DNA of 64,000 nucleotides. Source: Deltaproteobacteria bacterium. GTDB lineage: Bacteria > Desulfobacterota > Desulfomonilia > UBA1062. The position numbers were made by a program, and so were the translations under genes. The first letter of the stretch is position 1. The number at the start of each line of letters is the position of its first letter. Where the stretch lies: contig JAHDOV010000003.1 in NCBI GenBank assembly GCA_018434685.1, positions 402,302 to 466,301 on the forward strand, written 5' to 3'. Below, piece after piece: positions 6,693 to 22,077 of the stretch. The notes under the pieces were generated by a model. The model searched no databases, was not told where the DNA came from, and saw nothing but the letters and a program-made list of their open reading frames with translations.

Positions 6693-8291
6693 TTACTGCT
6701 CGAGTATTACCGGTTCGAGGAGGATCACCAGTTCATTGGTTTCAACCGCCTTGATCTTCTGGCTGAAGAGATATCCCACGTACGGGATATCGCCCAGAAT
6801 GGGGATACTCTTGGTCTCGTTGCTCAGATTTTTGCTGATGAGACCGCCCAGGGCTATGATATTGCCGCTCCTGACCCTGATCTGTGTCGATGCCTCTTTG
6901 AGATCAACAGTGGGGAGTGTGTAGATATTCCCGCTGATATTCTTCTCCAGGAGTTCCACCACCCTGCTCTTGATAGGGGTGATACTCAGATTCACCGTAT
7001 CGGTTTCCAGATCGATGTAGGGAAGCACACCGAGCATGATGCCGTCGAAGATCGTACCGATATCCACCTCGGGCGTGATAATGGTCGATCCTCCCTCGAT
7101 GGTTGTTGTCGTGAGTTTGATCTCCCGGATATAGGAGCTGTTGGTCCCCACGCTGATCAGTGCGGGTTGGCCGTTTGTCACCCTGATTCTCGGGTTGGAA
7201 AGAACCTTTATCGTGCCGAATTCTGCCAGGGCGTTGAGCGTGGCGTCAAACCCGTGCTTCTGGGATTGGACCTGTATCTCGAGTGATGGAACAAGGTTGT
7301 CCGTGGGAAGTGCAAGATTCTGCTGAATGGGATTGAATACATAGTCTTGGATATTGCCGTGTATGCTCGACCAGTCGATGCCGTATCTGGCGGAATCGCT
7401 CAGCGAGACTTCGAGGATCTTTGCCGTTATGAGGACCTGGGAATTGTAGTATCGACGTATGGTATTCACATACGCATCTATGCGCTCGACGCGATCCCTC
7501 CGGTCATTGACCTCGAGAAAACCGATTGCCCGGTTGAGATAATAGCTTCCATGCTGAGACAGGGACGATTTGACGATATCCTCAATCTGGGTATAGATGT
7601 CGCTGCTTGTCGTCGGGGTGGTATCCTTGATGGAAAACTCCCCTGCAAGGGGATTATTTCCTGACGAAGCATTACTGCCACTGTTGGCGAGAACATCCCC
7701 TCCCACCGAGATCTTTGTCTCTTTCTGCGAAGAAAGGAAATTGAGGTGATAGGTTTTTGACTGGGTGCCCCTGATCAGAAGGGAGTTCCCGCGGATCTCG
7801 TAGAAAATATTCTGTGATGCCGAGAGATTTTCCAGTGCGTCCCGAAGGGGGGTTTCGCTGAAAGAGACCGTTATCGGGGAGATGGTGATTGCCGGCTGAG
7901 AGGACTCCTTCGCAGCCTGCTGGGGCCCCTGGCTTGTATCAGGCTGGCTTTGAGAGTCCTCTTCCGGGGCCTGGGCATGCAGGTCTTTGGTTGTGATCCT
8001 GGAGTCTATTACGAGATCGAGGCCTGCGATCTCTGCAATGGCACTGAATATGTCCGTAAACCGGGCGTCCTTTGCCGTTATGGTTATGGCCTTGCCTTCG
8101 AGCGGGTCGAGAGGTTTTTTTGTTATAGCTGGAGCCGCCTCCGGGAGAGTCCTCTCCGGGATGGGGGTCAGCGAGGAAGTCTCTGTCTCGATGGAGAAAT
8201 CTTCTTTTTCCAGGCGCCGGTCAGTGGCGCATCCTGAAATCAGAGCAGCGATAGCCAGCAGGCTCAGTAATGACCTAGTAACCTTTGACAT
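6693..8291 (-). CDS. mshL: MSHA-type pilus secretin MshL
   Basis: This is the outer-membrane secretin ring through which the pilus passes. The start was set at 8291, where MSKVTRSLLSLLAIAALISGC gives a lipoprotein signal peptide with Cys21; an in-frame start 33 bases upstream would spoil it. An STN-type domain lies at about residues 65-110. A Ser/Asn-rich linker then leads to the N-domains and the C-terminal secretin core with NPRIRVTNGQPALISVG and the final ALGGLISK/IPILGDIPYVGYLF elements. The architecture fits MshL better than PilQ or GspD. It is the last gene of the pilus operon and overlaps the preceding gene by 17 bases. Confidence 0.9.
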   Translation of the reverse strand: MSKVTRSLLSLLAIAALISGCATDRRLEKEDFSIETETSSLTPIPERTLPEAAPAITKKPLDPLEGKAITITAKDARFTDIFSAIAEIAGLDLVIDSRITTKDLHAQAPEEDSQSQPDTSQGPQQAAKESSQPAITISPITVSFSETPLRDALENLSASQNIFYEIRGNSLLIRGTQSKTYHLNFLSSQKETKISVGGDVLANSGSNASSGNNPLAGEFSIKDTTPTTSSDIYTQIEDIVKSSLSQHGSYYLNRAIGFLEVNDRRDRVERIDAYVNTIRRYYNSQVLITAKILEVSLSDSARYGIDWSSIHGNIQDYVFNPIQQNLALPTDNLVPSLEIQVQSQKHGFDATLNALAEFGTIKVLSNPRIRVTNGQPALISVGTNSSYIREIKLTTTTIEGGSTIITPEVDIGTIFDGIMLGVLPYIDLETDTVNLSITPIKSRVVELLEKNISGNIYTLPTVDLKEASTQIRVRSGNIIALGGLISKNLSNETKSIPILGDIPYVGYLFSQKIKAVETNELVILLEPVILEQ

Positions 8292-8682
8292 GAAGTGTCT
8301 CCCTGGTACCGTTTTGGTAGGCAACCGTTACCGAGTTTCTATCAATGGACATGAGGGTAAAGGCTTCTGTTGTGTCCCCGACATTCATCTTCCTCCCGTC
8401 AATGATGACGTAGCTGCGTGAACCGTTTTTCACGATCATGCTCACGGTAACGGGCTCCTCTCCCGGGGTGTTGTGGAGGAAGACATCCTGGAGAGGCTCG
8501 GAATTGTCATTCTCCCGAACGTGCGAGGTATACAGGGTAAGCTGATCGACATAGGTAAGGAATTCCGGCCGGTCCGGGACAAAATTTGTTTCTGTCGGCA
8601 CCGCCATATAGGCGAGCATGCCCAGGAGTGCCCCGATACAGGGCAGGGCAAAGAGGAGGAGAATTTTCCGGTCAATTCCCAT
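8275..8682 (-). CDS. Pilus biogenesis protein, MshK/PilP-like
   Basis: The 135-residue protein has one N-terminal membrane segment (residues about 7-28, KILLLFALPCIGALLGML). The periplasmic domain ends in a short beta-rich part (YVIIDGRKMNVGDTTEAF, VTVAYQNGTRETLHVKG) resembling the HR domain of PilP, GspC and MshK, which docks inner-membrane components onto the secretin. Identity rests on this pattern and on its position just before mshL. The start ATG at 8682 fits the membrane segment; upstream in-frame codons give an implausible basic leader. Confidence 0.72.
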   Translation of the reverse strand: MGIDRKILLLFALPCIGALLGMLAYMAVPTETNFVPDRPEFLTYVDQLTLYTSHVRENDNSEPLQDVFLHNTPGEEPVTVSMIVKNGSRSYVIIDGRKMNVGDTTEAFTLMSIDRNSVTVAYQNGTRETLHVKGY

Positions 8683-9076
8683 GTGCGTTCTCCCCCAGTT
8701 TGAATCCCTTGACCGCCAGCCGTATTCCCGGCGATCCGCTTTCGATGATAGCGCTCTCCAGGAAGAAGACCCCATCGCGATAGGTGGATATGATCTTGGA
8801 CCGGAGTGCATCCAGGTCGTGATCGTAGAGGGTGATGTCGTAATCCACGTTCGTTTTTCGCTCCCTGGAAACCGCTACGAGCCTTTTCCCGTATTCTTTG
8901 AGGACCTCGAGCTTGTCCCCGTAGATCTTCCTCTCGGAGCGCATCTCTACGATGGTCTGATACTTTTTCTCGTTATAGGCTGCCTGCACCTGGGTGGACC
9001 GATAATAGTAACAGGAAGACGTAAAGCTCATGATGCCAATGATTCCTGCAATGATGGCGACGGTGAAGTATCTCAT
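8672..9076 (-). CDS. Pilus biogenesis protein, MshJ/PilO-like
   Basis: The 134-residue protein has an N-terminal membrane helix (residues 2-20) followed by a short coiled-coil-like and alpha/beta periplasmic domain, the PilO/GspM/MshJ plan. Its ATG overlaps the upstream stop in an ATGA and its own 3' end overlaps the next gene by 11 bases, so it is surely part of the operon. Direct sequence similarity is weak and the name depends mostly on position. The Cys near residue 22 is not in a good lipobox. Confidence 0.7.
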   Translation of the reverse strand: MRYFTVAIIAGIIGIMSFTSSCYYYRSTQVQAAYNEKKYQTIVEMRSERKIYGDKLEVLKEYGKRLVAVSRERKTNVDYDITLYDHDLDALRSKIISTYRDGVFFLESAIIESGSPGIRLAVKGFKLGENAHGN

Positions 9077-10479
9077 GGTCTTGTCTCGCACTCCATGGAA
9101 AAGGCCGCCGATTTTTCTGACTGCTGGAAGGTTGCATTGCTGACCGTGTATGTTTCCTGTATCTGAGACATGAATGAGGAAAACGTCCTTTTGGACTGGG
9201 GGTATGCTGCCCCTATGACGCCTGCTATCTCCACGTGCAGAGAGTCGCTAAGCGTTGAGTGTCGCGGTGTCGATTCTCCCGGGAGCCCCGGTGAAGCGGC
9301 AACGGTATCACCCCCTGGGCGGGTGATCTCTATCCTTGTGAGTGAAATGTCGCCTGGAACCTTCTGGGTGATTGAGCCCAGAATCGTATAGAGCTTCGGT
9401 TCTGCCTCGAACTGCTCATACATGCTGATGATGCCGTTGATGTTTGTAAAATCCAGTTCCTTGCAGAGCTCGGTGTAATCCTTCTCCAGGGCGCTGAGGT
9501 TTTGCAGATATGAACGCTGAGCCTCCTGCAGCTTGTTTTCATAGAGCCGGGCCGTTTGGGAGTTGTGAGTCCCGAAGCCGAAGAGCAGAAACGACAGGAG
9601 TATCATGATGGCGGAGATCCCGGTAGAGTATCGGGCATAGGCCGCGCGTTGTTTTGTCAGCTTGAAGCTCCTGGGGGTGAAATCATATCCCCTCGTACAG
9701 ATAGTTCCCATCAGTTCGCTGTCAGGGTGCATGCCGCCATCAGATTTCCCCAAAGAAAATATTTCGGCGTGGATATCTTTTTCCTCCAGATCCTCGAGGG
9801 AGAGCTCTTCCAGGCCGATGGTATAGATGTGCTGAGCCGACTCGTTATAGGAGTTTCTGAGCAGCGAGATCATCTCCCTTATCCCCGATGCTGTTTCCGC
9901 AGGGAGGTCAAAGGATTCGTATTTGTTGATGGTTATGAGGGAATAGATGACGGACTGTTTGGACCCGATGATCCTGACGTAGCGGTGGTCTTCGAAGATT
10001 GTCAGGGTCATTTCCGGGGTTTTTCCGGCAACCGTGGATGCAAGAGCTGCCTCTATGGGACAATAGATGTCCAGAAACGTCTGGTTTTCATCAAGGACGG
10101 CAATCCGGTCGATATCGCCCGCCGGGACAGCCAGATACGAAAATTTTGCCCGCACCTTGTCGATCTCGTGGATCTTCGTGAATGCTACGGCGTAGTCTGC
10201 ATTGAAAAGGCCGGTCTTGTCGATGGTCGATCTGATATGGGCGAGGGTCGCCTCGTTCGTGACACAGGAGAATTCCCCGAGATCCGCATAGATGGTCCTG
10301 GGCGAAAAGCATACCGCTACAGACCTGGCCTTTTTCGCCATGCTCCGCAGTTCTTCGGATGAGAGACGTTCGGCCCTTTCGAGGATTACCCGGTCTTTTG
10401 TTTTCCGATACCAGGCTGCCTTGTGCGTTTCCTCGTCAAGACAGATACTGCAGCCTGTTTTCTTGTCTCGAGCCATCAT
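9073..10479 (-). CDS. Fused PilM-like and PilN-like pilus protein (MshI/GspL architecture)
   Basis: The 468-residue protein has a cytoplasmic region of about 280 residues with features of the degenerate actin-like PilM/MshI domain. One membrane segment follows (about residues 288-310, SAIMILLSFLLFGFG), then a coiled-coil stretch and a periplasmic PilN-like domain (SLTRIEITRPGG, VEIAGVIGAAYPQSKRTFSSFM). GspL of type II secretion has the same one-chain plan, whereas type IVa pili usually keep PilM and PilN separate. Two adjacent ATG codons are possible starts (10479 and 10476); the second has the better distance to GAGG. It lies between a prepilin and the PilO-like gene. Confidence 0.78.
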   Translation of the reverse strand: MMARDKKTGCSICLDEETHKAAWYRKTKDRVILERAERLSSEELRSMAKKARSVAVCFSPRTIYADLGEFSCVTNEATLAHIRSTIDKTGLFNADYAVAFTKIHEIDKVRAKFSYLAVPAGDIDRIAVLDENQTFLDIYCPIEAALASTVAGKTPEMTLTIFEDHRYVRIIGSKQSVIYSLITINKYESFDLPAETASGIREMISLLRNSYNESAQHIYTIGLEELSLEDLEEKDIHAEIFSLGKSDGGMHPDSELMGTICTRGYDFTPRSFKLTKQRAAYARYSTGISAIMILLSFLLFGFGTHNSQTARLYENKLQEAQRSYLQNLSALEKDYTELCKELDFTNINGIISMYEQFEAEPKLYTILGSITQKVPGDISLTRIEITRPGGDTVAASPGLPGESTPRHSTLSDSLHVEIAGVIGAAYPQSKRTFSSFMSQIQETYTVSNATFQQSEKSAAFSMECETRP

Positions 10480-10585: not shown

Positions 10586-11245
10586 TTATTCGAACCGCCC
10601 GAACAGGTAGGTCAGACTCACCGCCTCGAGGATATCGTCATACGATGCGGTCTCGGGTGCTCCCGGTTTTTCCAGCTGGTAATTGTCGGCATTATCTAAT
10701 CTGTCGTTATGATTGTCATCATTGGGAGCATCGACGCAGAAATTCTTTCCTGAAGAAAGGACAACAACGGCGGCATGGATATTCCCGCCATCGCAGAACA
10801 GACCGCCAGGGTGTGCCCCGGTGATGAGTTCGCCCAGATGTGTCTTGAATTCGTCTGTGGACGTTGTGACGGTAAGGTACGGGTCAACGGCATAGAAAAG
10901 GGTCTGCAGGTATGCATCGTTCCCGCTGATGCCCAGCGTCGCAAAGGGGAGATAGCCCCGGTAGGTGCCCGAGTTCTCCGAACCGCCGGTGGCAGACCCT
11001 GCATAGGGGAGCCTTCCCGTTGCGAGGGCATACCCGATGATAGCTGTTTTTGCCTCCTTTACGGTTGCGCGGGTCTCCTTTAACTTGTTCTGTTTTACGA
11101 GCATGGGCAGCAGTTCTGCGCCCATGCCCAGCAGGAGTCCCACAATGACAAGAACGAAGGCCAGTTCTATAAGGGTAAAGCCACCCCTGGAACCGGTCGT
11201 CTTTCCCACTGGCCTGACCTGCGGATAAAGACCGGAGACGTTCAT
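10586..11245 (-). CDS. Type IV prepilin-like protein
   Basis: From ATG 11245, supported by AGGAGG, the protein has a long 22-residue basic leader ending Gly-Gly. The mature N-terminus is FTLIELAFVLVIVGLLLGMG with Glu at position 5, a textbook class III signal for the prepilin peptidase. The 219-residue length and a globular part containing two cysteines (FCDG, NFCVDA) suggest a minor or non-classical pilin. An in-frame reading region continues 96 bases upstream, inside the platform gene, but is not expected to be translated. Confidence 0.88.
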   Translation of the reverse strand: MNVSGLYPQVRPVGKTTGSRGGFTLIELAFVLVIVGLLLGMGAELLPMLVKQNKLKETRATVKEAKTAIIGYALATGRLPYAGSATGGSENSGTYRGYLPFATLGISGNDAYLQTLFYAVDPYLTVTTSTDEFKTHLGELITGAHPGGLFCDGGNIHAAVVVLSSGKNFCVDAPNDDNHNDRLDNADNYQLEKPGAPETASYDDILEAVSLTYLFGRFE

Positions 11246-11246
11246 G

Positions 11247-12461
11247 CTATCCTCCTCCGAGCTGTGATATGAGATCATACACCGGCCCGATAAGCGAGAT
11301 GACGATAAATACGAACAGCCCCCCCGAGAGTGCCATGACAATAGGCTCGATCATCTTGCCCATTATGTCGACGAAGCGGGAGGTCTTTTCCTGGTAGGTG
11401 TCTGCCAGATAGCTCATCCGCTGATCAAGCGTCCCGGTACTCTCCCCCACGCTGACCATCCGAAGGGTGATGGCGTCGAAGAACCGGGTCTGGGAAAAAG
11501 CGCTCAACAGAGAGTCTCCTGTGCCGGTCGATTTCTTGATGCCATGGATGACGTCCCTGAATGCGGGATTTCTCATGGTGGTCCCCAGCACCTCGAAACA
11601 CTTCGTGATGGTAACCCCCGAGTGCAACATCAGTGAAAGATTCGAGAAGAACAGGGTGAGGTTGGAATACTTGATGAGCTCACCGGCTATGGGGATCCTG
11701 AAATACAGACGGGAAAGCAGGAGGTGGGTCCGTTCATTTTTCTTCATGAGAAAGATGGTGCAGGCGAGGGCGATAACGCTCAGGGGGAACAGAAACCAGT
11801 TCTGTTCGGACAATCTGACGAAGTAAACCAGTTTCCTCGTTATTTCCGGCAGGACCACATCCATTTCGTTAAAGGTCTCCACGAGCCGCGGCAGAACGAA
11901 ATAGAGCCAGAAGACGGTGACCGCACCCATGGCGCTTATGACAAAGGCGGGATAGATGAGTGCCCTCTTGGTCTGGGATACGATATCGTCGAGCTTTTTG
12001 AGGTGCTCCGCCGTATTTTTGAGCGCTTCCTGGATGGTGCCGGTTTCCTCTCCGATATTGCAGAAAAAGACCAGCATCCGGGGGAACACCGAAGAATCCT
12101 GTGCAAAGGACGCGGAAAGGGACTCCCCCCCCGCAATCTTCTGGATTACCTGCTCCAGGGCCTTCTTCAGCCGCTTGTTCCTGATGGTGTCCTTGATGCT
12201 CTCGATGGATTCGAGCAGCGGTAATCCGCTGCCGATCAAGGTGGACAGAGCGTCACAGAACTCCACGATGTCCATCCGGACAACCTTTGGCTGGAACAGT
12301 TTTTCCATTTCGTCCAGGACAAAAAATCTTTTTTCTTTATACCTGAGCAGGATGAAATCCTGTGATGAAAGGGTATCCATCAGTGCCTGAATATTCTCGA
12401 AATGCCCCTTTCCCTTGAAGACGGCCCCATCCCGGGTGAGCGCCGAGTAAGCAAACAGCAT
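11247..12461 (-). CDS. mshG: Pilus inner-membrane platform protein MshG (PilC/GspF family)
   Basis: Platform proteins connect the assembly ATPase to the growing pilus. The 404-residue protein has the two repeated GspF domains, beginning at about residues 66 and 269, with the conserved LSTLIGSGLPLLES and LMLHSGVTITKCFEVL segments. Three membrane helices are visible (about 165-190, 217-236, 375-395). Its start overlaps the ATPase stop by one base (TAATG). Confidence 0.93.
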   Translation of the reverse strand: MLFAYSALTRDGAVFKGKGHFENIQALMDTLSSQDFILLRYKEKRFFVLDEMEKLFQPKVVRMDIVEFCDALSTLIGSGLPLLESIESIKDTIRNKRLKKALEQVIQKIAGGESLSASFAQDSSVFPRMLVFFCNIGEETGTIQEALKNTAEHLKKLDDIVSQTKRALIYPAFVISAMGAVTVFWLYFVLPRLVETFNEMDVVLPEITRKLVYFVRLSEQNWFLFPLSVIALACTIFLMKKNERTHLLLSRLYFRIPIAGELIKYSNLTLFFSNLSLMLHSGVTITKCFEVLGTTMRNPAFRDVIHGIKKSTGTGDSLLSAFSQTRFFDAITLRMVSVGESTGTLDQRMSYLADTYQEKTSRFVDIMGKMIEPIVMALSGGLFVFIVISLIGPVYDLISQLGGG

Positions 12462-14095
12462 TATCGCAGCACCCTCCTGGCTTCTTCAAAACTGGTCTTT
12501 CCGGAGATGATCTTGCGCGCGGCATCGCCCGAGAGCGTGTACATCCCCTCCTCGATCGCCTTTTCCTTGATCTCGAAAGGGTGTGCCCCGGTGGAGATGA
12601 GTTTCTCGATCTCCTTGGAGACAACGAGGATTTCCGCCACCATGATTCTGCCCAGAAACCCGGTCGACAGACACTGCGGGCAACCTCTGGGCGAATAGAC
12701 CTTTGTCCCGGGGGCAATCCCGAAGAGCCGGTGTTCCTCCGGTCCCGAGACGCCTTCCTCCTTGCAGTAGGGGCAGAGCGACCGGACCAGTCTCTGGGCG
12801 ATCACACACAGCAGGGACGAGGAGATCATGTAGTCCCGCATACCGAGATCCTTGAGCCTGGGTATGGCGCCCACTGCATCGTTTGCATGTACCGTGGACA
12901 GGACGAGATGACCGGTCTGGGCAGCCCTGAGTCCCATGGTAGCGGTATCGGCATCACGGATTTCGCCGATGAGGATGACGTCCGGATCCTGTCGCAGGAA
13001 GGCCCGTACCGCAGAGGCGAACACGTAGCCGGCCTTTTCGTTCACCTGGGTCTGACGGATGAGGGGAAACCGGTATTCAATAGGATCTTCCACGGTGACG
13101 ACGTTCTTCTCGATGGAATTGATCTCCCGCAGGGAGGCGTAGAGCGTGGTGGTCTTGCCGGATCCCGTGGGGCCTGATACCAGGATCATGCCGAACGGTT
13201 TGAGCAGGGTGTCCTTGACCTTTGCACTATCATCTTCGGCAAGGCCGAGACTTTTCAGGTTGTAGAGTTCCTCCGAACTTGAAAGGATGCGCATGACCAT
13301 GTTCTCTCCATGGGAGACGCGCAGTGTCGAGACCCGCATGTCATACTTCTCATTGAGGAAATCAAAGGCAAGTCGGCCATCCTGGGGTTTTCTCTGCTCG
13401 GAGATATCCATGTCCGCCTTGACCTTGAGGGTCGAGACGATGCGCGGGTGGAGCTCGGAGGGGAAGGTGTAGAAGGGGTAGAGGATGCCGTCTATCCGGT
13501 AGTAGATCTGGGTAGTCTTGCTTGTGGGCGTGATGTGGATATCGGTTGCCCGGGAATTTATGGCAGACATGAGAAGGAGACTGCACAGCCGCTCCGTATC
13601 CACGTCGTGTGAACTGCGTTTTGCATGCTCGAGCTGTTCCCTGATCTCGTCTTCCAGGGGGTGTTCCAAGAGGTAGTAGTCCTTTTCGATATGGGTGCTT
13701 ATCTGCGAAGACGAGGCCACGACACAAGTGATCTTTTTTTTCGATATGCGCGAAGCAAGGTCGAGCAGTTTTGAATTGTCCGGCTCGTTCAGGGCTATGG
13801 TGAGCATGCCGTCATCCACGGCAACGGGAAGCAGGGAATTGTCCTTGGCGAACTGCAGGGGCAGAGATCTCAATGCCTCCTTCTGCGGCGAATAGTTCCT
13901 CAGTTCCAGGAAATCCACCTGCGACTGCTTTGCTATGGCCTGGGCAAGCTCGGTCTGGGTCACGAGTCCGAGACGAAGGAGTACGTCCCCCACTCGTTCT
14001 CTGGTTGCCTGCTGTTCTTTCAGGGCAAGCCCGATCTCCTGGTCTGTGATGATGCCTTCATCCTTGAGCAGATCGCCTATACGTTTCTTTTCCAT
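12461..14095 (-). CDS. mshE: Pilus assembly ATPase MshE with c-di-GMP-binding type N-terminus
   Basis: This is the hexameric ATPase that powers pilus extension. The N-terminus holds two tandem MshEN-like units, RIGDLLKDEGIITDQEI... and RVGDVLLRLGLVTQTEL..., each with the R-x-G-x-x-L, G-[IL]-[IV] and final A-x-x-x-Q spacing known to bind c-di-GMP. The ATPase core has Walker A GPTGSGKTTT, an Asp box, Walker B (VILIGEIRD) and a four-Cys zinc motif (CPYC...CPQC). The start at 14095 places MEKKRIGDLL at the N-terminus; ATG 14104 is also possible. Length is 544 residues. Confidence 0.93.
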   Translation of the reverse strand: MEKKRIGDLLKDEGIITDQEIGLALKEQQATRERVGDVLLRLGLVTQTELAQAIAKQSQVDFLELRNYSPQKEALRSLPLQFAKDNSLLPVAVDDGMLTIALNEPDNSKLLDLASRISKKKITCVVASSSQISTHIEKDYYLLEHPLEDEIREQLEHAKRSSHDVDTERLCSLLLMSAINSRATDIHITPTSKTTQIYYRIDGILYPFYTFPSELHPRIVSTLKVKADMDISEQRKPQDGRLAFDFLNEKYDMRVSTLRVSHGENMVMRILSSSEELYNLKSLGLAEDDSAKVKDTLLKPFGMILVSGPTGSGKTTTLYASLREINSIEKNVVTVEDPIEYRFPLIRQTQVNEKAGYVFASAVRAFLRQDPDVILIGEIRDADTATMGLRAAQTGHLVLSTVHANDAVGAIPRLKDLGMRDYMISSSLLCVIAQRLVRSLCPYCKEEGVSGPEEHRLFGIAPGTKVYSPRGCPQCLSTGFLGRIMVAEILVVSKEIEKLISTGAHPFEIKEKAIEEGMYTLSGDAARKIISGKTSFEEARRVLR

Positions 14096-14337
14096 ACAAT
14101 CCATCCGTTCAGGTACGTATCCGTTCCGTCGAGTTTGCACAGGCACAGCTGTACGATCCTGCAGCAGGAGATGCGTCGAGCTGTACCCTATGCAAAGAGG
14201 GGCTGGGAGTCAGCTGACGGTTTTGACAGCGGAGTGTTCCCATTGCCTGGTTTCTACCCGAAATGAGCAGCGCCTTAAGCCTTTCCGGTTGCTAGGCACA
14301 CCCGGAGGTGTGTCTGGCCCGGCTGCGTCCCGCCTGG

Positions 14338-14910
14338 TTACATGCGCCAGTACAGGGTCTTTGCAGCGGTATTCGTGTATACCTGGTTGGCCCGTATGGA
14401 TCCCGTATTATAGACCCCGTCATCATATTTTATGTCAATGAGCTCTGCAACCTCGGCGGGTATGTTCAGGAAGGTGGACCAGTTATCCTGTACCCCGTTG
14501 ATGTTCTGCCACAGGATATACATGGAGCCGCCGAATGCGTTTGTCGGTTCACTGCCTGCGGCACCGTCATAATCGCCGTTGATGATGTTTGCCAGAACGA
14601 GATCCTCGAAGAGCCAGTATCGTTCATTGTTGTTGATCTGTCCGTTGGGGGTGTTGGGATTGTCATGGGTATCCCCGCTAGGGCTGTTTGTCAGGTTCTC
14701 GTCCCCAGGATACATGCCGTATTTGTCATAGAACGTATAGAAGGCGGCAGTGAGGGATTCTTTCTGGTTCACGAGTTTTTTGACCTTTGCATTCTGAATG
14801 AGGGCCTCTCCCTTGAGTACCCCGGTAATCAGCAGCCCGACAATGACCAGCACCAGTGCCAGCTCCACAAGGGTAAATCCATGTTTGCCTCTGTGAATCC
14901 ATCTGTTCAT
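14338..14910 (-). CDS. Type IV prepilin-like protein
   Basis: The 190-residue protein has a short leader MNRWIHRGKHG cleaved before FTLVELALVLVIVGLLITGV, with Glu5. The globular domain begins with a YDKYGMYPGDENLTN segment, as in several minor pilins, and is Asn-rich. AAGGAGG precedes the ATG. It is the first gene after the adhesin-like gene and is followed by a 242-base gap before mshE. It could be the major subunit or a priming pilin; sequence alone does not decide. Confidence 0.88.
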   Translation of the reverse strand: MNRWIHRGKHGFTLVELALVLVIVGLLITGVLKGEALIQNAKVKKLVNQKESLTAAFYTFYDKYGMYPGDENLTNSPSGDTHDNPNTPNGQINNNERYWLFEDLVLANIINGDYDGAAGSEPTNAFGGSMYILWQNINGVQDNWSTFLNIPAEVAELIDIKYDDGVYNTGSIRANQVYTNTAAKTLYWRM

Positions 14911-15146: not shown

Positions 15147-17297
15147 TCAGGGACTGTTCAGTATCCTCTTCGAGCCCAGTGGACAGAAACTCACCCCTTC
15201 AAGGGAGGAGATATCCTCATCGTAGAGTTTCATATGCCACGAGGCATACTCGATCTTCTTCTGCCTCAGATCGATTGCCGGTCCGAAGACCTTTCCGGGA
15301 CAGAGCACCTTCTCGAGCAGGGTCTCTCCGGTGAGGGCATCGAGGACCAGGAGGTACGACTGCCCGGTGTCGATCCCTTCGCAGCCTTGTTCCCTGTTCC
15401 ATGCCGAGAGATATACCCGGGAATCCATGACCACGGCATTCTCGTACGTGCCGTTGTCGAGAGGCCTGGACCAGAGGGTTCCGACAGGTGTGATGCACGT
15501 GGCGCGCTGAGGGGTGAATGCAAGGACATGGAGTGCTTTGCGCCAGCCGAACGTGCGGATGTCGCACACGGGGCCTGCCTCGCCGGTAGACAGGACATCC
15601 TTCATGGCGAGATCCTGGTCGAAGATGAAGATCATGCCCGATGTCGTCCCCGCAAGGACGATGCCCAGGCACGGATCATACCGAAGGGACGATATTGAGG
15701 CGCCGGTGGAGCCCGATGACTGGAATATACCGGTATCCAGGGACAGGGAGGTGATGGTGTCCCCCTGTGCGATGTATGCACTGGTGAGAGACAGTTCGAA
15801 GAGATCGCCGGGCTGTCTCCAGATGATCGCCGGCCCCTGCCCGAGGGCATGGATGTACCCGGCCCGGTTCGGTCCCGCCACGATAGTGGATCCCCGCTGG
15901 ACAACCTTTCCTCCGATTCCCCTGATCACCCACGCGAGATCATCGGTGAGAGGGTCTATTAAGAGGAGATAATCCCTGGACGTGGAACAGACGATGCCCG
16001 TCTCGGAGGTGTACGCAGAGGTCGCGGGCCCGCTGAGGCAGGCCCGGGGAAGCACGGAGAGGTACAGCGGATCGTACGGGCCTGCCTGATAGTATACCGG
16101 AGAGGTCCTGTTGAGCCAGCCGGGGTCAAAGGTGCCGGCGCTGTTGGTGAGAAACTGTCCCGTGGTATTGCACAGCGACCTCATCAGGCATACATAATCC
16201 GGCATGGACAGCACGGACTGTCTCGACGGAAGGAACTCTCCGCCGCCTTTATTCGCCACCTCCCGGAGGAAGGCCGTATCCGGGCCTATTGTATGGACGC
16301 GGACATTGACGGACGAGGCGTATGCCGCCACATCGTCCAGGCAGTGCGATCCGGGGCCTTCGATGGCGCAGTCCTGCGGATTGCCGTCGGCATCGAAGTC
16401 CTGAAGCCATCCGGGAAGATTGCCGTCATGTACTGCAATACCGCCCGATGCCACGATGATATGCCTGCCGGATACGCATGCCTCGGGAAAATCGTCGAGG
16501 AGCTGCGCCAGGGATTCAGCCAGGGGGGACTGGGCGGCAGTAGGGTGGAGCGTTTCCAGGGCGCCATGCAGTGCCCTGATATCGCGGGTAAATGGTTGAA
16601 CGAGACCCCCGGAGGTGCTGGCAATGGCGATGGTGCACATGTCGAGCCCTTCCAGGAGGTCGTTGATGTATGAACGGACAAAGGTCCAGCAGGAAAGATT
16701 CCCCCCGAGACCCATGGCATCGCTCGCCGGGAAGTATGCATTGCCGTAGTCTCCCCGGAAAAAGGTTCCCTCGGTGGAATAGGCGGAACCGGAGACATCG
16801 TCCCGGTAGGCTGCCGGAACGATCTCTCCGGTCGTGTACTCGAGATAGATCCGTTCTCCGTCATAGTCCTTCCCGCAGGAGGCTCGCATGGCCTGGGAAT
16901 CATCGACAAGGATGATGACGTGCGGACTGCAGAAGGAGAGTGCCGGATCGTTCACCACTGTCCAGGGCTGTTCGCTGAGGGCAGCGCGCCAGGAAAAGGA
17001 ACACTCGTCCCCCCAGGTCTTTTCTAGGAGATCTGTCGTGAATGCGGCATGATCCCAGCCCTCAGGTGCATCTACGGTCTTCAGGGCGGTCTCGGGAGGG
17101 GTCTCCTTCAGCTCCGGGGCGTGCGTTTTCCTGAGCAGGGAGTGGAAGGCCGCACCCGATCTGATATTGTACTTGATGAGAGCCAGTGCAGACAGAGAGG
17201 CTGCCTGGATGACGCAGACCAGTATGAGCACATAAACAAGTACCCAGCCGGAGCTATCTGAGGACAAACGGATAGGATATGTCTTTGAGTGTGCCAT
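15147..17297 (-). CDS. Putative pilus tip adhesin: PilX-like N-terminus joined to VWA and propeller-like region (PilY1-like)
   Basis: The protein has 716 residues from ATG 17297. It starts with a 17-residue leader ending in Gly, then WVLVYVLILVCVIQAASLSA (18-37), a hydrophobic helix like those of PilX/GspK-type minor pilins lacking Glu5. A VWA domain follows (about 126-385) with a partial metal site D132-D-S134-Q-A136, the last Ser being replaced by Ala. The C-terminal 280 residues hold propeller-like strands with D-x-x-T-G turns (VLDALTGETLLEK). PilY1 adhesins have the same VWA-then-propeller order but usually a Sec signal peptide and more than 1,000 residues. Its start overlaps the PilW-like gene by 44 bases. 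Domain calls are by pattern only. Confidence 0.72.
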   Translation of the reverse strand: MAHSKTYPIRLSSDSSGWVLVYVLILVCVIQAASLSALALIKYNIRSGAAFHSLLRKTHAPELKETPPETALKTVDAPEGWDHAAFTTDLLEKTWGDECSFSWRAALSEQPWTVVNDPALSFCSPHVIILVDDSQAMRASCGKDYDGERIYLEYTTGEIVPAAYRDDVSGSAYSTEGTFFRGDYGNAYFPASDAMGLGGNLSCWTFVRSYINDLLEGLDMCTIAIASTSGGLVQPFTRDIRALHGALETLHPTAAQSPLAESLAQLLDDFPEACVSGRHIIVASGGIAVHDGNLPGWLQDFDADGNPQDCAIEGPGSHCLDDVAAYASSVNVRVHTIGPDTAFLREVANKGGGEFLPSRQSVLSMPDYVCLMRSLCNTTGQFLTNSAGTFDPGWLNRTSPVYYQAGPYDPLYLSVLPRACLSGPATSAYTSETGIVCSTSRDYLLLIDPLTDDLAWVIRGIGGKVVQRGSTIVAGPNRAGYIHALGQGPAIIWRQPGDLFELSLTSAYIAQGDTITSLSLDTGIFQSSGSTGASISSLRYDPCLGIVLAGTTSGMIFIFDQDLAMKDVLSTGEAGPVCDIRTFGWRKALHVLAFTPQRATCITPVGTLWSRPLDNGTYENAVVMDSRVYLSAWNREQGCEGIDTGQSYLLVLDALTGETLLEKVLCPGKVFGPAIDLRQKKIEYASWHMKLYDEDISSLEGVSFCPLGSKRILNSP

Positions 17298-17940
17298 GGT
17301 ACCCTGCCTGGAGATTGATGGTGAGGATATTGCCGCTGAGCACGGCATCGAAGGCCTTGATTGCCTCTGCCATGAGCTGGCCGTTGCGGTAGAGGCCGTC
17401 GGATCTGAGCTCGTAATGGATCGCTGGAACAATCCGGTCGCCGACAGAGGCTGTGGCCCCCGAGGTGAGCGGAATGAGGGTATTGCCCCGTGAATAGGTG
17501 TGGGTGACGATTGACGGTCCGCTGTCGGTAATGATACCGAGGTCTGCCCAGTAGTCGGGTACGCTGTCGAGATCGATATCGACGGTATCCAGCAGCAGGC
17601 TGTGCTCATTGGATGAGAGGACGACCGAGTACAGCGGCGGGGGATATTTACCGGGGACTTTCAGCCCGGGGTGAGACGAGGTGTGGGGGAGGCCTGCGAT
17701 GAACAGCTGATCCTTGGCCGGGGCTATCTTGAGATCCTGGGGCATGAGGCATCCGCACTGCGCCAGGTCCGTATCGAGCGTAACGAGGGTGTTCCTCAGC
17801 GACTGGAGACAGTACCAGGTGGACGTAACCCCTGCATAGCTCCTGGCGCTAAGAATGTTCATGCTCACCAGGGCAAGGATGAGGACGGAAGATATGGTAA
17901 TGGAAACAAGGAATTCCACAAGGCTCAAGCCCTTGTTCAT
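17254..17940 (-). CDS. PilW-like minor prepilin
   Basis: From ATG 17940, with AGGAGG eight bases upstream, the 228-residue protein has a leader of four residues (MNKG) and mature N-terminus LSLVEFLVSITISSVLILAL with Glu5. The rest, containing the CGC pair near residue 60 and a SVGDRIVPAIHYEL stretch near the end, follows the plan of PilW-type minor pilins. It is the first gene of the pilus operon and precedes the PilX/PilY1-like protein, matching the pilW-pilX-pilY1 order of other species. Confidence 0.82.
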   Translation of the reverse strand: MNKGLSLVEFLVSITISSVLILALVSMNILSARSYAGVTSTWYCLQSLRNTLVTLDTDLAQCGCLMPQDLKIAPAKDQLFIAGLPHTSSHPGLKVPGKYPPPLYSVVLSSNEHSLLLDTVDIDLDSVPDYWADLGIITDSGPSIVTHTYSRGNTLIPLTSGATASVGDRIVPAIHYELRSDGLYRNGQLMAEAIKAFDAVLSGNILTINLQAGYHGTLKDISYPFVLR

Positions 17941-18152: not shown

Positions 18153-19793
18153 ATGGGAAAGAAGGGAAGCGCCGTCTTAGTGATAATGCTGGTTGTTGTG
18201 ATCGGCTTCTTGTTCTTTCTGATCGTGCCGCTCGGTGGAAAGATCGGCCTTCTCAGGGAGGCGACCATATCGTTCATATTCAGAAACCCTCCCCGGTTCA
18301 TCTCGCTCGAGGTAAACGTGGACGGGCAGGCGCAGACCATAAAGGCAGGGGAGTCCCTGACGATAACCGGTGGAGAAACCATCATCATTACCAAGGTAAA
18401 GGCAAATACCTTTTTCGATTCCTACCTCACCGCCGATATCGTGGGCTTCGGCAAGAACGATGACCTCCACGAGCCCATCGAGACAGCCGAGATCAGAAAA
18501 CAGCTCCTTGCTGCAGGGATCAAATCCGTCCCCATCGAAATCTACTATATCGAACGCAACATCGCAAAGGTACCCCTGGAGATGGAACTGACCGAGCAGG
18601 ACTACATTTCCAGGATCAGGGAGACAAAGGACTCGGACGAAAAGGTCGCTGTCCTCAAGAGCGCCCTCATAGCGTTTCCCAAGAATCGCGATTTTCTCGA
18701 TCAGCTCGACGAACTGCTGTCGGCCAGGGGTGACTATGAGGCCCTTGCTGGCATATACCGGGGCATTATCGAGGCGGATCCCCAAGACATGGCAGCGCAT
18801 GCCAAACTCGCCCGCTACTACGCCAAGCTCGGGCTGTTGAAGGAGGCAATGGAGGTAAGCAGGCAGGTTGTGAATGCCGGAGAGGCAAACGCGAACACCT
18901 ACAGGCGGATGGCCTATCTCGCCGGCCAGCTCGGTGATTTCGACAATCGGGTTGCCTACCTCCAGAAGGCACTGGAGCTGGACAAGGGCAACGACGCAAT
19001 CATCGTCGACCTTGCAAAGACCTATGAACAGGCAGGCAAGACGGGCAAGGCGCTCGAGATCTACAAGTCGGCCGCCCAGACGGCACAGGACAAGGAAATC
19101 CTCATCCCGGTCATCGAAGACTCACTGAAGAAGAAGAACTACAAGGATGCCGAGGCGGCCCTGAAACGCTATGTCGGCTATTACCCGAAGGACGAGAATG
19201 CCTATGCCCAGCTGGGCATGGTGATGGGCCAGCTCGGGGACACGGGTGCCCAGATAACCTACTATGAAAAGGCAGTGGAGCTTTCGCCGAAGGAGCCGCT
19301 CTTGCTGTTCAACCTCGGGGCGGCCTATGAAAAGGCAGGGAAACTACCAGACGCCCTGGTCCGCTACAAGCAGGTCATGAACATAAAACCCAAGGACAAG
19401 GATTCCCTCGCGAAGGCAGCAGCCCTGTCTCAGAAGCTGGGAAGGTACAAGGAATCCTATTCGTACTACCGGTCGCTCATCGCCATCGAAGACGCGCTTG
19501 AATACAGAAAGGGCCTCATCACCGCCTCGGTGGGCCTGAAGGACCACGACAAGATCATCGATGCGTGCAGTGCGTATCTCGACAAGAAGAAAGAGCATGA
19601 TGTCGCCATCACCTTAGCGTACGCATACGAGGCAAGGGCTGCAGGGAGGCAGGGCAGAGAACGGCTCGACGACCTGAGCGCCGCCCTGGATGCCTATCGC
19701 CTTGCACTCAAGATCAATCCTCAATCCGCCAAGGCAAAAGAAAAGATCCCCGAGCTCAGGATCGAGACCATAAAACTCAAGAGAGGGGTATAG
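18153..19793 (+). CDS. Membrane-anchored TPR-repeat protein
   Basis: The 546-residue protein has an N-terminal membrane anchor (residues about 7-30, AVLVIMLVVVIGFLFFLIVP), a small domain of about 110 residues with beta-strand pattern, then about eight TPR units running to residue 530 (for example AYAQLGMVMGQLGDTGAQITYYEKAVELSP). Such proteins usually hold together envelope assemblies. Its divergent position next to the pilus operon is suggestive but no more. GAGGAAG precedes the ATG. Confidence 0.85.
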   Translation: MGKKGSAVLVIMLVVVIGFLFFLIVPLGGKIGLLREATISFIFRNPPRFISLEVNVDGQAQTIKAGESLTITGGETIIITKVKANTFFDSYLTADIVGFGKNDDLHEPIETAEIRKQLLAAGIKSVPIEIYYIERNIAKVPLEMELTEQDYISRIRETKDSDEKVAVLKSALIAFPKNRDFLDQLDELLSARGDYEALAGIYRGIIEADPQDMAAHAKLARYYAKLGLLKEAMEVSRQVVNAGEANANTYRRMAYLAGQLGDFDNRVAYLQKALELDKGNDAIIVDLAKTYEQAGKTGKALEIYKSAAQTAQDKEILIPVIEDSLKKKNYKDAEAALKRYVGYYPKDENAYAQLGMVMGQLGDTGAQITYYEKAVELSPKEPLLLFNLGAAYEKAGKLPDALVRYKQVMNIKPKDKDSLAKAAALSQKLGRYKESYSYYRSLIAIEDALEYRKGLITASVGLKDHDKIIDACSAYLDKKKEHDVAITLAYAYEARAAGRQGRERLDDLSAALDAYRLALKINPQSAKAKEKIPELRIETIKLKRGV

Positions 19794-20521: not shown

Positions 20522-21190
20522 ATGGCAGGTATGGCAAAGGATTATTACCGGATACTCGGGCTGGCTCGTGATGCCACCCCGGTGGAGATCAAGAAGACCT
20601 ACAGGAGGCTCGCCCTGCAGGTTCACCCGGACGTGAACCGCGAAGATCCGGGGTCTGAAGAACACTTCAGAGAAATCACCGAGGCGTACGGGGTGCTGGT
20701 CGACCCGCTCAAGCGTGAAAAATATGACCGTGGCCAACATTCTGACTTTGCCCGTGAAGAGGTCTTTCGCGACGTATTCACCCACGCCGATTTTCACGAT
20801 GTGTTCGATGACCTGCCTGTGAAACGGGAGTGGCTGGAAAGACTCTTCGATATCGGCAGGGTGATCGCCTATGAGGCACTGATCTACGGGGGGAGCCCCA
20901 AAGAGGTGTTGAAGCGGAGCATCGTGCGCTTTGCCGCACAGGGTGCTTCGAAGATGTTCCACCACGTCATGGACATGCACGAACACATCGCGATCTCCCA
21001 GGATATCGCCTCCCATGGGGGTTACATAACGATTGAATACAGGCCCGGCTTCAGAATGAGCAGGATACGGGTACGCATACCCCCGGGCACGAAATCAGGA
21101 ACTGTTCTGAGGATAGCGGGAATGGGCCGGAAGAACTTCAGGAAAAAGGCCGGCGACCTTTACTTGCACATGGACATTTCTTCACTATAG
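20522..21190 (+). CDS. J-domain protein lacking the zinc-finger region
   Basis: The 222-residue protein has an N-terminal J domain (YYRILGLARDATPVEIKKTY, then HPD at about residues 37-39), which stimulates Hsp70 ATPase. There is no Gly/Phe stretch and no CxxCxGxG repeats. A middle region of about 90 residues is unlike classical DnaJ, and the C-terminal VRIPPGTKSGTVLRIAGMG piece resembles the DnaJ substrate-binding domain. ATG 20522 is preferred, with GAGG ten bases upstream; the upstream TTG and the downstream ATG 20531 are alternatives. The true dnaJ is at 62811-63917. Confidence 0.85.
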   Translation: MAGMAKDYYRILGLARDATPVEIKKTYRRLALQVHPDVNREDPGSEEHFREITEAYGVLVDPLKREKYDRGQHSDFAREEVFRDVFTHADFHDVFDDLPVKREWLERLFDIGRVIAYEALIYGGSPKEVLKRSIVRFAAQGASKMFHHVMDMHEHIAISQDIASHGGYITIEYRPGFRMSRIRVRIPPGTKSGTVLRIAGMGRKNFRKKAGDLYLHMDISSL

Positions 21191-22077
21191 ATGACAATCT
21201 GGTTCTTTCCGTGCTGTTTTCCCCAGTACATGGCCTTGTCTGCCATTCTGATCAGCTCGCTGTGATCGGTTGTGTTCTTGGGGAGGCTTGCCAGGCCAAT
21301 GGTGACGCTGACATCCAGGGAGACGCTGACGGTCTTGCATATTCTCTCGGACACCACGAGAGCTTCTTCAATGGATGTTTCCGGAAAGATGATGACAAAC
21401 TCCTCACCGCCATAGCGGGCAAGGATATCGCAGTTTCTCGTGTTGTGTCTGAATACGTGGGCAAGGTGCATGAGGAGCTCGTTGCCCTCTTCATGGCCTT
21501 TCGTGTCGTTATAGTTCTTGAAGTTGTCGATATCGATCATGGCCAGAGAGAGCGTCCGGTTGTACCGCATATGCCTAGTAACTTCGTTCTTCAGCATGGA
21601 GATCAGGTGGCGGAAATTGTAGAGACCGGTAAGTTCGTCGGTGCGGGAGAGATTCTTGTAGTACGTTGCCAGCTCCGCCTCCTCTTTCAGCCGCACCTCC
21701 TCGATGATCCTGTTTATGGTGAGGTGAAGGTGGTCCAGGAGGATCGGTTTTGTGATAAAGTCCGATGCGCCCAGTTTCATGCACTCCACGGCATCACGGA
21801 TCGTCCCGTAGCCGGTAATCATGATGACCTGCATGTGGGGGCGTATCTTCTTGATTTCCTGCAACAGCTCGGAGCCGGTCATGCCGGGCAGGTGGAGATC
21901 CACGATGGCAATCTGATACCCGTTGCGCTCAACTAGGCGTACTGCCTCTTCGCCATTTGTGGTGGCAGTCAGATCCAGTCCTTTTTCACACAGGTATTCG
22001 CAGATGAGATCGAGTGTCTCGTGCTCGTCATCTACCAGGAGGATTTCTGTTTTTCTGTTCAATTCCGTCTCAACCAT
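21160..22077 (-). CDS. Response regulator with diguanylate cyclase output (REC-GGDEF)
   Basis: The 305-residue protein has a receiver domain (VDDE acid pocket at 15-18, phosphoacceptor Asp60, Lys110) and a GGDEF domain with active-site GGEEF at 223-227. It makes c-di-GMP from two GTP. An intact inhibitory I-site R214-x-x-D217 lies five residues before the active motif, so product feedback is expected. Its 3' end overlaps the convergent J-domain gene by 31 bases. The likely kinase is the hybrid kinase at 23122 or an unlinked one. Confidence 0.95.
   Translation of the reverse strand: MVETELNRKTEILLVDDEHETLDLICEYLCEKGLDLTATTNGEEAVRLVERNGYQIAIVDLHLPGMTGSELLQEIKKIRPHMQVIMITGYGTIRDAVECMKLGASDFITKPILLDHLHLTINRIIEEVRLKEEAELATYYKNLSRTDELTGLYNFRHLISMLKNEVTRHMRYNRTLSLAMIDIDNFKNYNDTKGHEEGNELLMHLAHVFRHNTRNCDILARYGGEEFVIIFPETSIEEALVVSERICKTVSVSLDVSVTIGLASLPKNTTDHSELIRMADKAMYWGKQHGKNQIVIYSEEMSMCK

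Follow-up and report, generated by a model that had tools for sequence, protein, structure and literature searches.

A modular pilin that probably carries its own PilY1-like head in a family of uncultured Deltaproteobacteria

Organization of the locus

The window, by which we mean the whole 64,000-nucleotide stretch of deltaproteobacterial DNA that was analyzed, holds on its minus strand a gene at 15147..17297 (start ATG at 17297, stop at 15147; 716 amino acids plus the stop) that joins a pilin-type helix, a VWA domain of PilY1 type and a β-propeller in one predicted modular prepilin, referred to here as the fusion. A sequence-only reading had described this stretch as a PilX-like N-terminus joined to a PilY1-like protein, and all the details that it could see were confirmed; the strand, which it left unstated, is minus. 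A plus-strand reading of the same coordinates was rejected, there being no gene there.

Upstream of the fusion lies a gene for a PilW-like minor prepilin (17254..17940, minus strand) that possesses Glu5 (cleavage motif G/LSLVEF, with the slash at the predicted cut) and matches N_methyl at E 9.8e-5. It starts at an ATG at 17940 behind a Shine-Dalgarno GAGG and ends at 17254, and since the ATG of the fusion is at 17297, exactly 44 bases are common to both genes, as first read. The PilW-like gene adjoins the fusion in every locus whose sequence covers the upstream side.

Downstream, the same strand carries in order a prepilin that probably serves the adjacent machine as its major pilin (14338..14910; N_methyl E 2.2e-6), an MshE/PilB-like assembly ATPase with an MshEN domain (12461..14146; T2SSE 1.1e-120, MshEN 4.7e-17), a GspF/PilC/MshG-like platform protein (11247..12461; T2SSF 1.1e-49), a second prepilin (10586..11341; N_methyl 2.0e-4, equal to the cut-off), three small genes of the alignment type and finally a secretin (6693..8324; Secretin E 1.4e-32). 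The three small genes, also on the minus strand, are assigned largely by where they stand: a probable PilM/PilN- or MshI-like alignment protein by position and length (9073..10479; no Pfam family), a probable PilO/MshJ-like protein by position (8672..9091), and a probable PilP/MshK-like protein by position and a weak similarity to T2SSB at E 0.021 (8275..8811). An MshE-type ATPase, pilins and a secretin thus stand in one cluster, as in the MSHA pilus system, and the machine beside the fusion is MSHA-like. Single in-frame TAG codons were seen in the ATPase gene of one related genome (G007:C16:21122-22753) and in the pilin gene of another (G020:C18:8772-9350).

On its other side, in the loci that cover it, the pair formed by the pilW-like gene and the fusion is flanked by genes for a TPR protein, a phosphoesterase, DnaJ, a GGDEF regulator and an HDOD protein. 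The GGDEF response regulator (21160-22077) lies near the ATPase gene in the window and is a conserved neighbor of the pair in nearly all loci covering that side. MshEN domains are of the c-di-GMP binding type, and the combination of an MshEN ATPase with a conserved nearby GGDEF regulator suggests c-di-GMP control of the adjacent pilus. The TPR protein (18153-19793, plus strand) is divergent from the pair and conserved beside it in the loci covering that side. It begins with MGKKG followed by SAVLVIMLVVVIGFLFFL, a start that is loosely PilX-like (a weak match, 8.7% by profile), and could be another modular pilin or simply a membrane anchor.

Architecture of the fusion protein

Searches with the window protein alone against Pfam and the PDB detected none of its domains, and their recognition took profiles and structure. 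A confident AlphaFold2 model built on 19 sequences (pLDDT 87.5, pTM 0.81) lays out a helix at residues 17-58, three strands at 69-107, a VWA domain at about 122-366 and a propeller at about 374-711, so that both folds first proposed for the 716-residue chain are present in the predicted structure.

The leader (residues 1-17; 17247..17297, minus strand) reads MAHSKTYPIRLSSDSSG, is 17 amino acids long and ends in Gly at position -1, before a helix that begins WVLVYVLILVCVIQAASLSALALIKYNIRS; the predicted prepilin peptidase site is G17/W18. The pilin-type helix alpha-1 (residues 18-58; 17124..17246, minus strand) is modeled as one 42-residue helix, is kept unbroken across the family, and has PilX as its best profile match. 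Leader and hydrophobic helix are both as described in the sequence-only reading, including the missing Glu5. Across the family alignment G17 is nearly invariant, position +1 is aromatic (Trp, with Tyr or Phe in a few members), and a PilX-like V-L-V pattern follows this junction, the border of leader and helix being the best-conserved spot of the N-terminus. Trp at +1 is unusual in a pilin. None of the 19 aligned sequences possesses Glu at +5, which groups the fusion with the Glu5-less PilX/GspK kind, still within the pilins.

The Pfam pilin models gave no match to the window protein; PilX_N (PF14341) was among these, and it matched one of the 19 members weakly (E 0.051). Profile-profile comparison matched PilX at the cleavage site with 62-69%, the N-terminal profile reaching 69% (E 4e-5) against the family's own PilX, versus 1.9% against PilV, 1.4% against PilW and 0.8% against PilY1 signal peptides. 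The PilX profile scored 24.8 at this site, compared with a maximum of 14.2 for 60 column-shuffled PilX profiles. Ala-x-Ala-like stretches follow the helix in some members; unlike the G/W junction none is conserved in register, and the absence of a conserved Sec-type cleavage site among the homologues agrees with the claim that this is something other than an ordinary Sec signal. The genome codes for one prepilin peptidase, at C52:190914, and cleavage after Gly17 with incorporation into a filament is predicted from these sequence features.

The VWA domain (residues 122-366; 16200..16934, minus strand) matches the PilY1 VWA in hhalign with 98.7% (E 4.4e-16) and superposes on BatB (3ibs) with 160 residues aligned at 2.1 Å (Z 19.2). 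An LDDVA motif and an acidic DxDxD loop are common to the fusion and PilY1 domains, and on these sequence comparisons the VWA is of PilY1 type, a domain that many but not all PilY1 proteins have. Its metal site had been read as partly lost, D-x-S-x-A, and the window protein indeed has VDDSQAM here, with the degenerate MIDAS motif DDSQA at residues 132-136 (16890..16904, minus strand). Further changes affect the Thr site, which reads SPL, and the TDG Asp site, which reads ASGG, leaving two of the five ligands of the DxSxS...T...D arrangement (D132 and S134) and replacing the others (S to A, T to S, D to G). The MIDAS Thr is absent from all 19 sequences, and TDG is kept in nine of them. Given this degenerate site, metal-dependent binding by the VWA as in PilB appears unlikely for the window protein. 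The domain also holds an EF-hand-like acidic loop, DFDADGNPQD (residues 300-309; 16371..16400, minus strand), in which the four Asp residues of the DxDxDxxxxD pattern, D300, D302, D304 and D309, are invariant (19/19 sequences); if the head binds a metal at all, this loop is the likely site.

The propeller (residues 374-711; 15165..16178, minus strand) has at least seven four-stranded blades, seven of them within residues 425-711. Its structure match has a Z of 25.6, with 292 residues aligned at 2.7 Å, and the top matches include BamB as well as WD40 and designed propellers. PQQ_2 was found in 11 of 19 members, with a best E of 8.5e-10. The Pfam PilY1 propeller, PF05567, matched none of the 19 at E up to 1, though it does detect the PilY1 proteins of the same genome, below its cut-off. 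The whole propeller reaches 1.7% against the family's PilY1 propellers by profile, and its last-blade motif, GIDTGxSxLxxLDALTGE, resembles that of PilY1, with a score of 27.9 versus at most 19.6 in 40 shuffles. The fusion propeller has no DxNxDG-type calcium motif as in PilY1 propellers, and the only DxDxD(x4)D motif of the protein sits in the VWA. The PilY1 structure 3HX6 was absent among the 50 structure matches listed, an absence that excludes nothing.

The strands between helix and VWA (residues 69-107; 16977..17093, minus strand) are possibly part of an extra blade. The block at residues 71-110 is modeled with pLDDT 87-97 in the full protein and 62-74 in a model lacking the propeller, and several of the propeller's structural alignments start as far back as residues 69-103. 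From these two observations we infer that the strands belong to the propeller, whose first strands would be separated from the rest by an inserted VWA. The order in three dimensions would then be propeller followed by VWA, as read from pLDDT and alignment ranges.

Because it has neither a Sec signal, nor a PF05567 propeller, nor the propeller calcium motif, the protein is not classed as PilY1 and is grouped here with the modular minor pilins, as one whose head is PilY1-like.

Distribution and conservation of the pair

The gene is present as a single copy in its genome and occurs in 23 of the 24 genomes of its taxonomic family, which are metagenome-assembled genomes of uncultured Deltaproteobacteria/Thermodesulfobacteriota. 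Since most copies are full-length and identities range from 56% down to 32%, it is not the product of chance or of an annotation slip. The remaining genome, G004, is 77% complete and gave no match; two copies are incomplete, that of G016 being split over two contigs and that of G003 cut by a contig end. In G014 (L022/L105, G014:C56) one in-frame TGA near residue 350 marks either a pseudogene or a sequencing error.

The fusion is found in none of the 18 genomes of the sister family of the same class, and in a sample of 395 genomes from the phylum only this one family gave full-length matches. Matches outside it are partial, consisting of PilY1-like VWA cores in long frames or of propeller-only stretches, and the long PilY1-like frames have a Sec-like N-terminus wherever it can be read. 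Searching viral contigs and genome contigs with the single window protein returned no relatives, and the alignment-based search recognized members of the same family only.

The genomic site of the pair is constant, also in genomes from which the machine is missing or in which it lies elsewhere. Four loci (L029, L037, L042 and L044) have, immediately after the fusion, a PHP gene that in the window lies beyond the machine; the pilin-to-secretin genes are absent from between the two, and the flanking order is kept. ATPase searches placed the machine elsewhere in the genome in five cases (G006, G007, G010, G013 and G016). No close ATPase homologue, at E 1e-150 or better, was found in G008, G011, G021 and G023, each of which is at least 93% complete and keeps the fusion, a distribution that needs four separate changes on the protein tree. 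In these genomes the fusion must therefore need another machine or have another role. Because all four code for PilY1, another type IV pilus is apparently present, and the pair, having outlived its machine, presumably serves that other pilus. Retention of the pair without a neighboring machine suggests that pilus tips are exchangeable between machines.

Comparison with known systems

The locus resembles that of MshO, MshP and MshQ in MSHA pili, where a PilW-like and then a PilX-like gene lie near an MshE-type ATPase; unlike the fusion, MshO, MshP and MshQ are separate proteins. GspK of type II secretion is, like the fusion, a Glu5-less tip subunit with a bulky extra domain, but in GspK this domain is built of alpha-helices and sits as an insert within the pilin sheet, and neither VWA nor propeller is present. 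PilX and PilY1 of type IVa pili, such as those of cluster 3 of Myxococcus xanthus, share with the fusion the Glu5-less PilX-type helix, the PilY1-type VWA, the C-terminal propeller and the pilW neighbor. There they form two chains of about 150 and about 1,100 amino acids, whereas the fusion is one chain of 716, in which no Sec signal is found, the VWA comes after a pilin helix, and the propeller is distinct from Pfam's PilY1 propeller and does not possess its calcium motif. In M. xanthus, PilX is without Glu5, is placed atop the minor-pilin complex and stabilizes PilY1, of which the propeller is placed proximally and the VWA at the extreme tip (PMC7541494). The fusion would fit this scheme with the contact between PilX and PilY1 made covalent.

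Modular pilins with VWA heads are already known, and what appears new is the combination of pilin helix, VWA and propeller in one chain. PilB of Streptococcus sanguinis is a pilin-VWA tip protein (PMC8179133) that differs in its small globular pilin module, its intact MIDAS, the absence of a propeller and its monoderm machine. CpaL is another such tip protein (PMC12607857); CpaL/TadG of Tad pili unites a minor-pilin-like module with a VWA and is a proposed tip sensor, but it belongs to the Tad family, and its published description mentions the pilin-like module and VWA and no propeller. The PilB study reports over 1,200 modular pilins, spread across 264 architectures, and points out that similar modules occur in PilY1 proteins (PMC8179133). 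In the literature covered, in which subscription journals are mostly not included, no description of a pilin-VWA-propeller protein was found.

Proposed role at the pilus tip

We consider it probable that the fusion is a modular PilX-like minor type IV pilin that brings a PilY1-like head of its own to the tip. The cell's prepilin peptidase would remove the leader after Gly17, and the PilX-like helix and its PilW-like partner would pack into a two-pilin tip that starts filament assembly. VWA and propeller would then occupy the place that a separate PilY1 takes in ordinary type IVa pili, with the head held covalently rather than docked, the propeller probably beside the helix and the VWA facing outward as the touching or force-bearing domain. 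The location at the tip, and a part in adhesion or surface sensing, follow from this arrangement as expectations. Weighing against this reading are the missing Pfam pilin match of the window protein, the unusual Trp at +1, the degenerate MIDAS, and the four good genomes that keep the fusion and yielded no close homologue of the adjacent ATPase. A more specific version, in which a covalent PilX-PilY1 unit replaces the two-protein tip throughout the family, with the VWA inserted between strand unit and propeller and lying outermost, is tentative, and we give it a little less than an even chance.

The claim that pilX and pilY1 are here one gene stands to the extent that a pilin-type N-terminus, a VWA and a propeller share a chain beside a PilW-like gene, that PilX scores 69% for the helix versus at most 2% for the other profiles, and that the VWA is of PilY1 type. 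A literal fusion, derived from neighboring pilX and pilY1 genes, would be a further step, and it is disfavored by the propeller, with its missing PF05567 match, its 1.7% to the family PilY1 and its missing calcium motif, as well as by the persistence of separate pilX/pilY1 pairs in the same genome.

The protein might also be a periplasmic VWA-propeller protein anchored in the inner membrane by an uncleaved helix; it would then stay out of the filament and take part in assembly or sensing where the pilus machine has its base. The Trp at +1, odd for a pilin, and the retention of the pair without an adjacent machine in four good genomes would suit such an anchor, and a plug at the base has also been proposed for PilY1 (PMC7541494). 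An anchor, however, needs no conserved Gly and aromatic residue at the border of leader and helix, which is precisely what is best conserved; with the match to a PilX-type profile and the overlapping gene for a prepilin-type partner, this makes the anchor unlikely. It is very improbable that the protein is a short PilY1 with an ordinary Sec signal peptide and an accidental likeness to pilins. Each of the family's 14 PilY1 proteins that were read has its VWA about 15-20 residues after a short Sec-type signal, as against about 105 residues between leader and VWA in the fusion, and neither the 42-residue helix, the conserved G/W without an Ala-x-Ala in register, nor the 0.8% match to PilY1 signal peptides fits such a protein, for which the PilY1-type VWA and the scattered Ala-x-Ala-like stretches speak.

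Another reading takes the machine beside the fusion for a type II secretion-like pseudopilus, in which the fusion would be no adhesin and would instead, as a tip of the GspK kind, push or select cargo. ATPase, platform protein and secretin are common to both kinds of machine, and GspK, also without Glu5, has been proposed to crown the pseudopilus (PMC7541494). Against this, the ATPase bears an MshEN domain, a search with the GspK family gave no match, and the head combines a PilY1-type VWA with a propeller where that of GspK is an alpha domain; we regard a secretion tip as quite unlikely.

Separate PilX and PilY1 sets in the same genome

If the protein is indeed a covalent PilX-PilY1 unit, it would show that PilX directly carries PilY1 and that one tip can serve several pilus machines. 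The attachment of PilY1 at the tip and its contact with minor pilins are known mainly from pull-downs and tomography, to which a natural fusion kept across a family adds independent support for direct contact between PilX and PilY1, and a single-chain tip is a candidate for crystallization or imaging. The genome that carries the fusion also contains two complete clusters with a separate PilX (G/MVLILVL) and a PilY1 with a Sec signal, the PilY1 proteins being 1,068 and 1,100 amino acids long. These ordinary sets are a good internal control, allowing two ordinary tips to be compared with the fusion within one genome. Two minor-pilin/PilY1 clusters of this genome (L048 and L049; G000:C12 and G000:C36) each encode, just after pilY1, a small protein that is exported by Sec, measures about 150 amino acids and is possibly PilY2-like.
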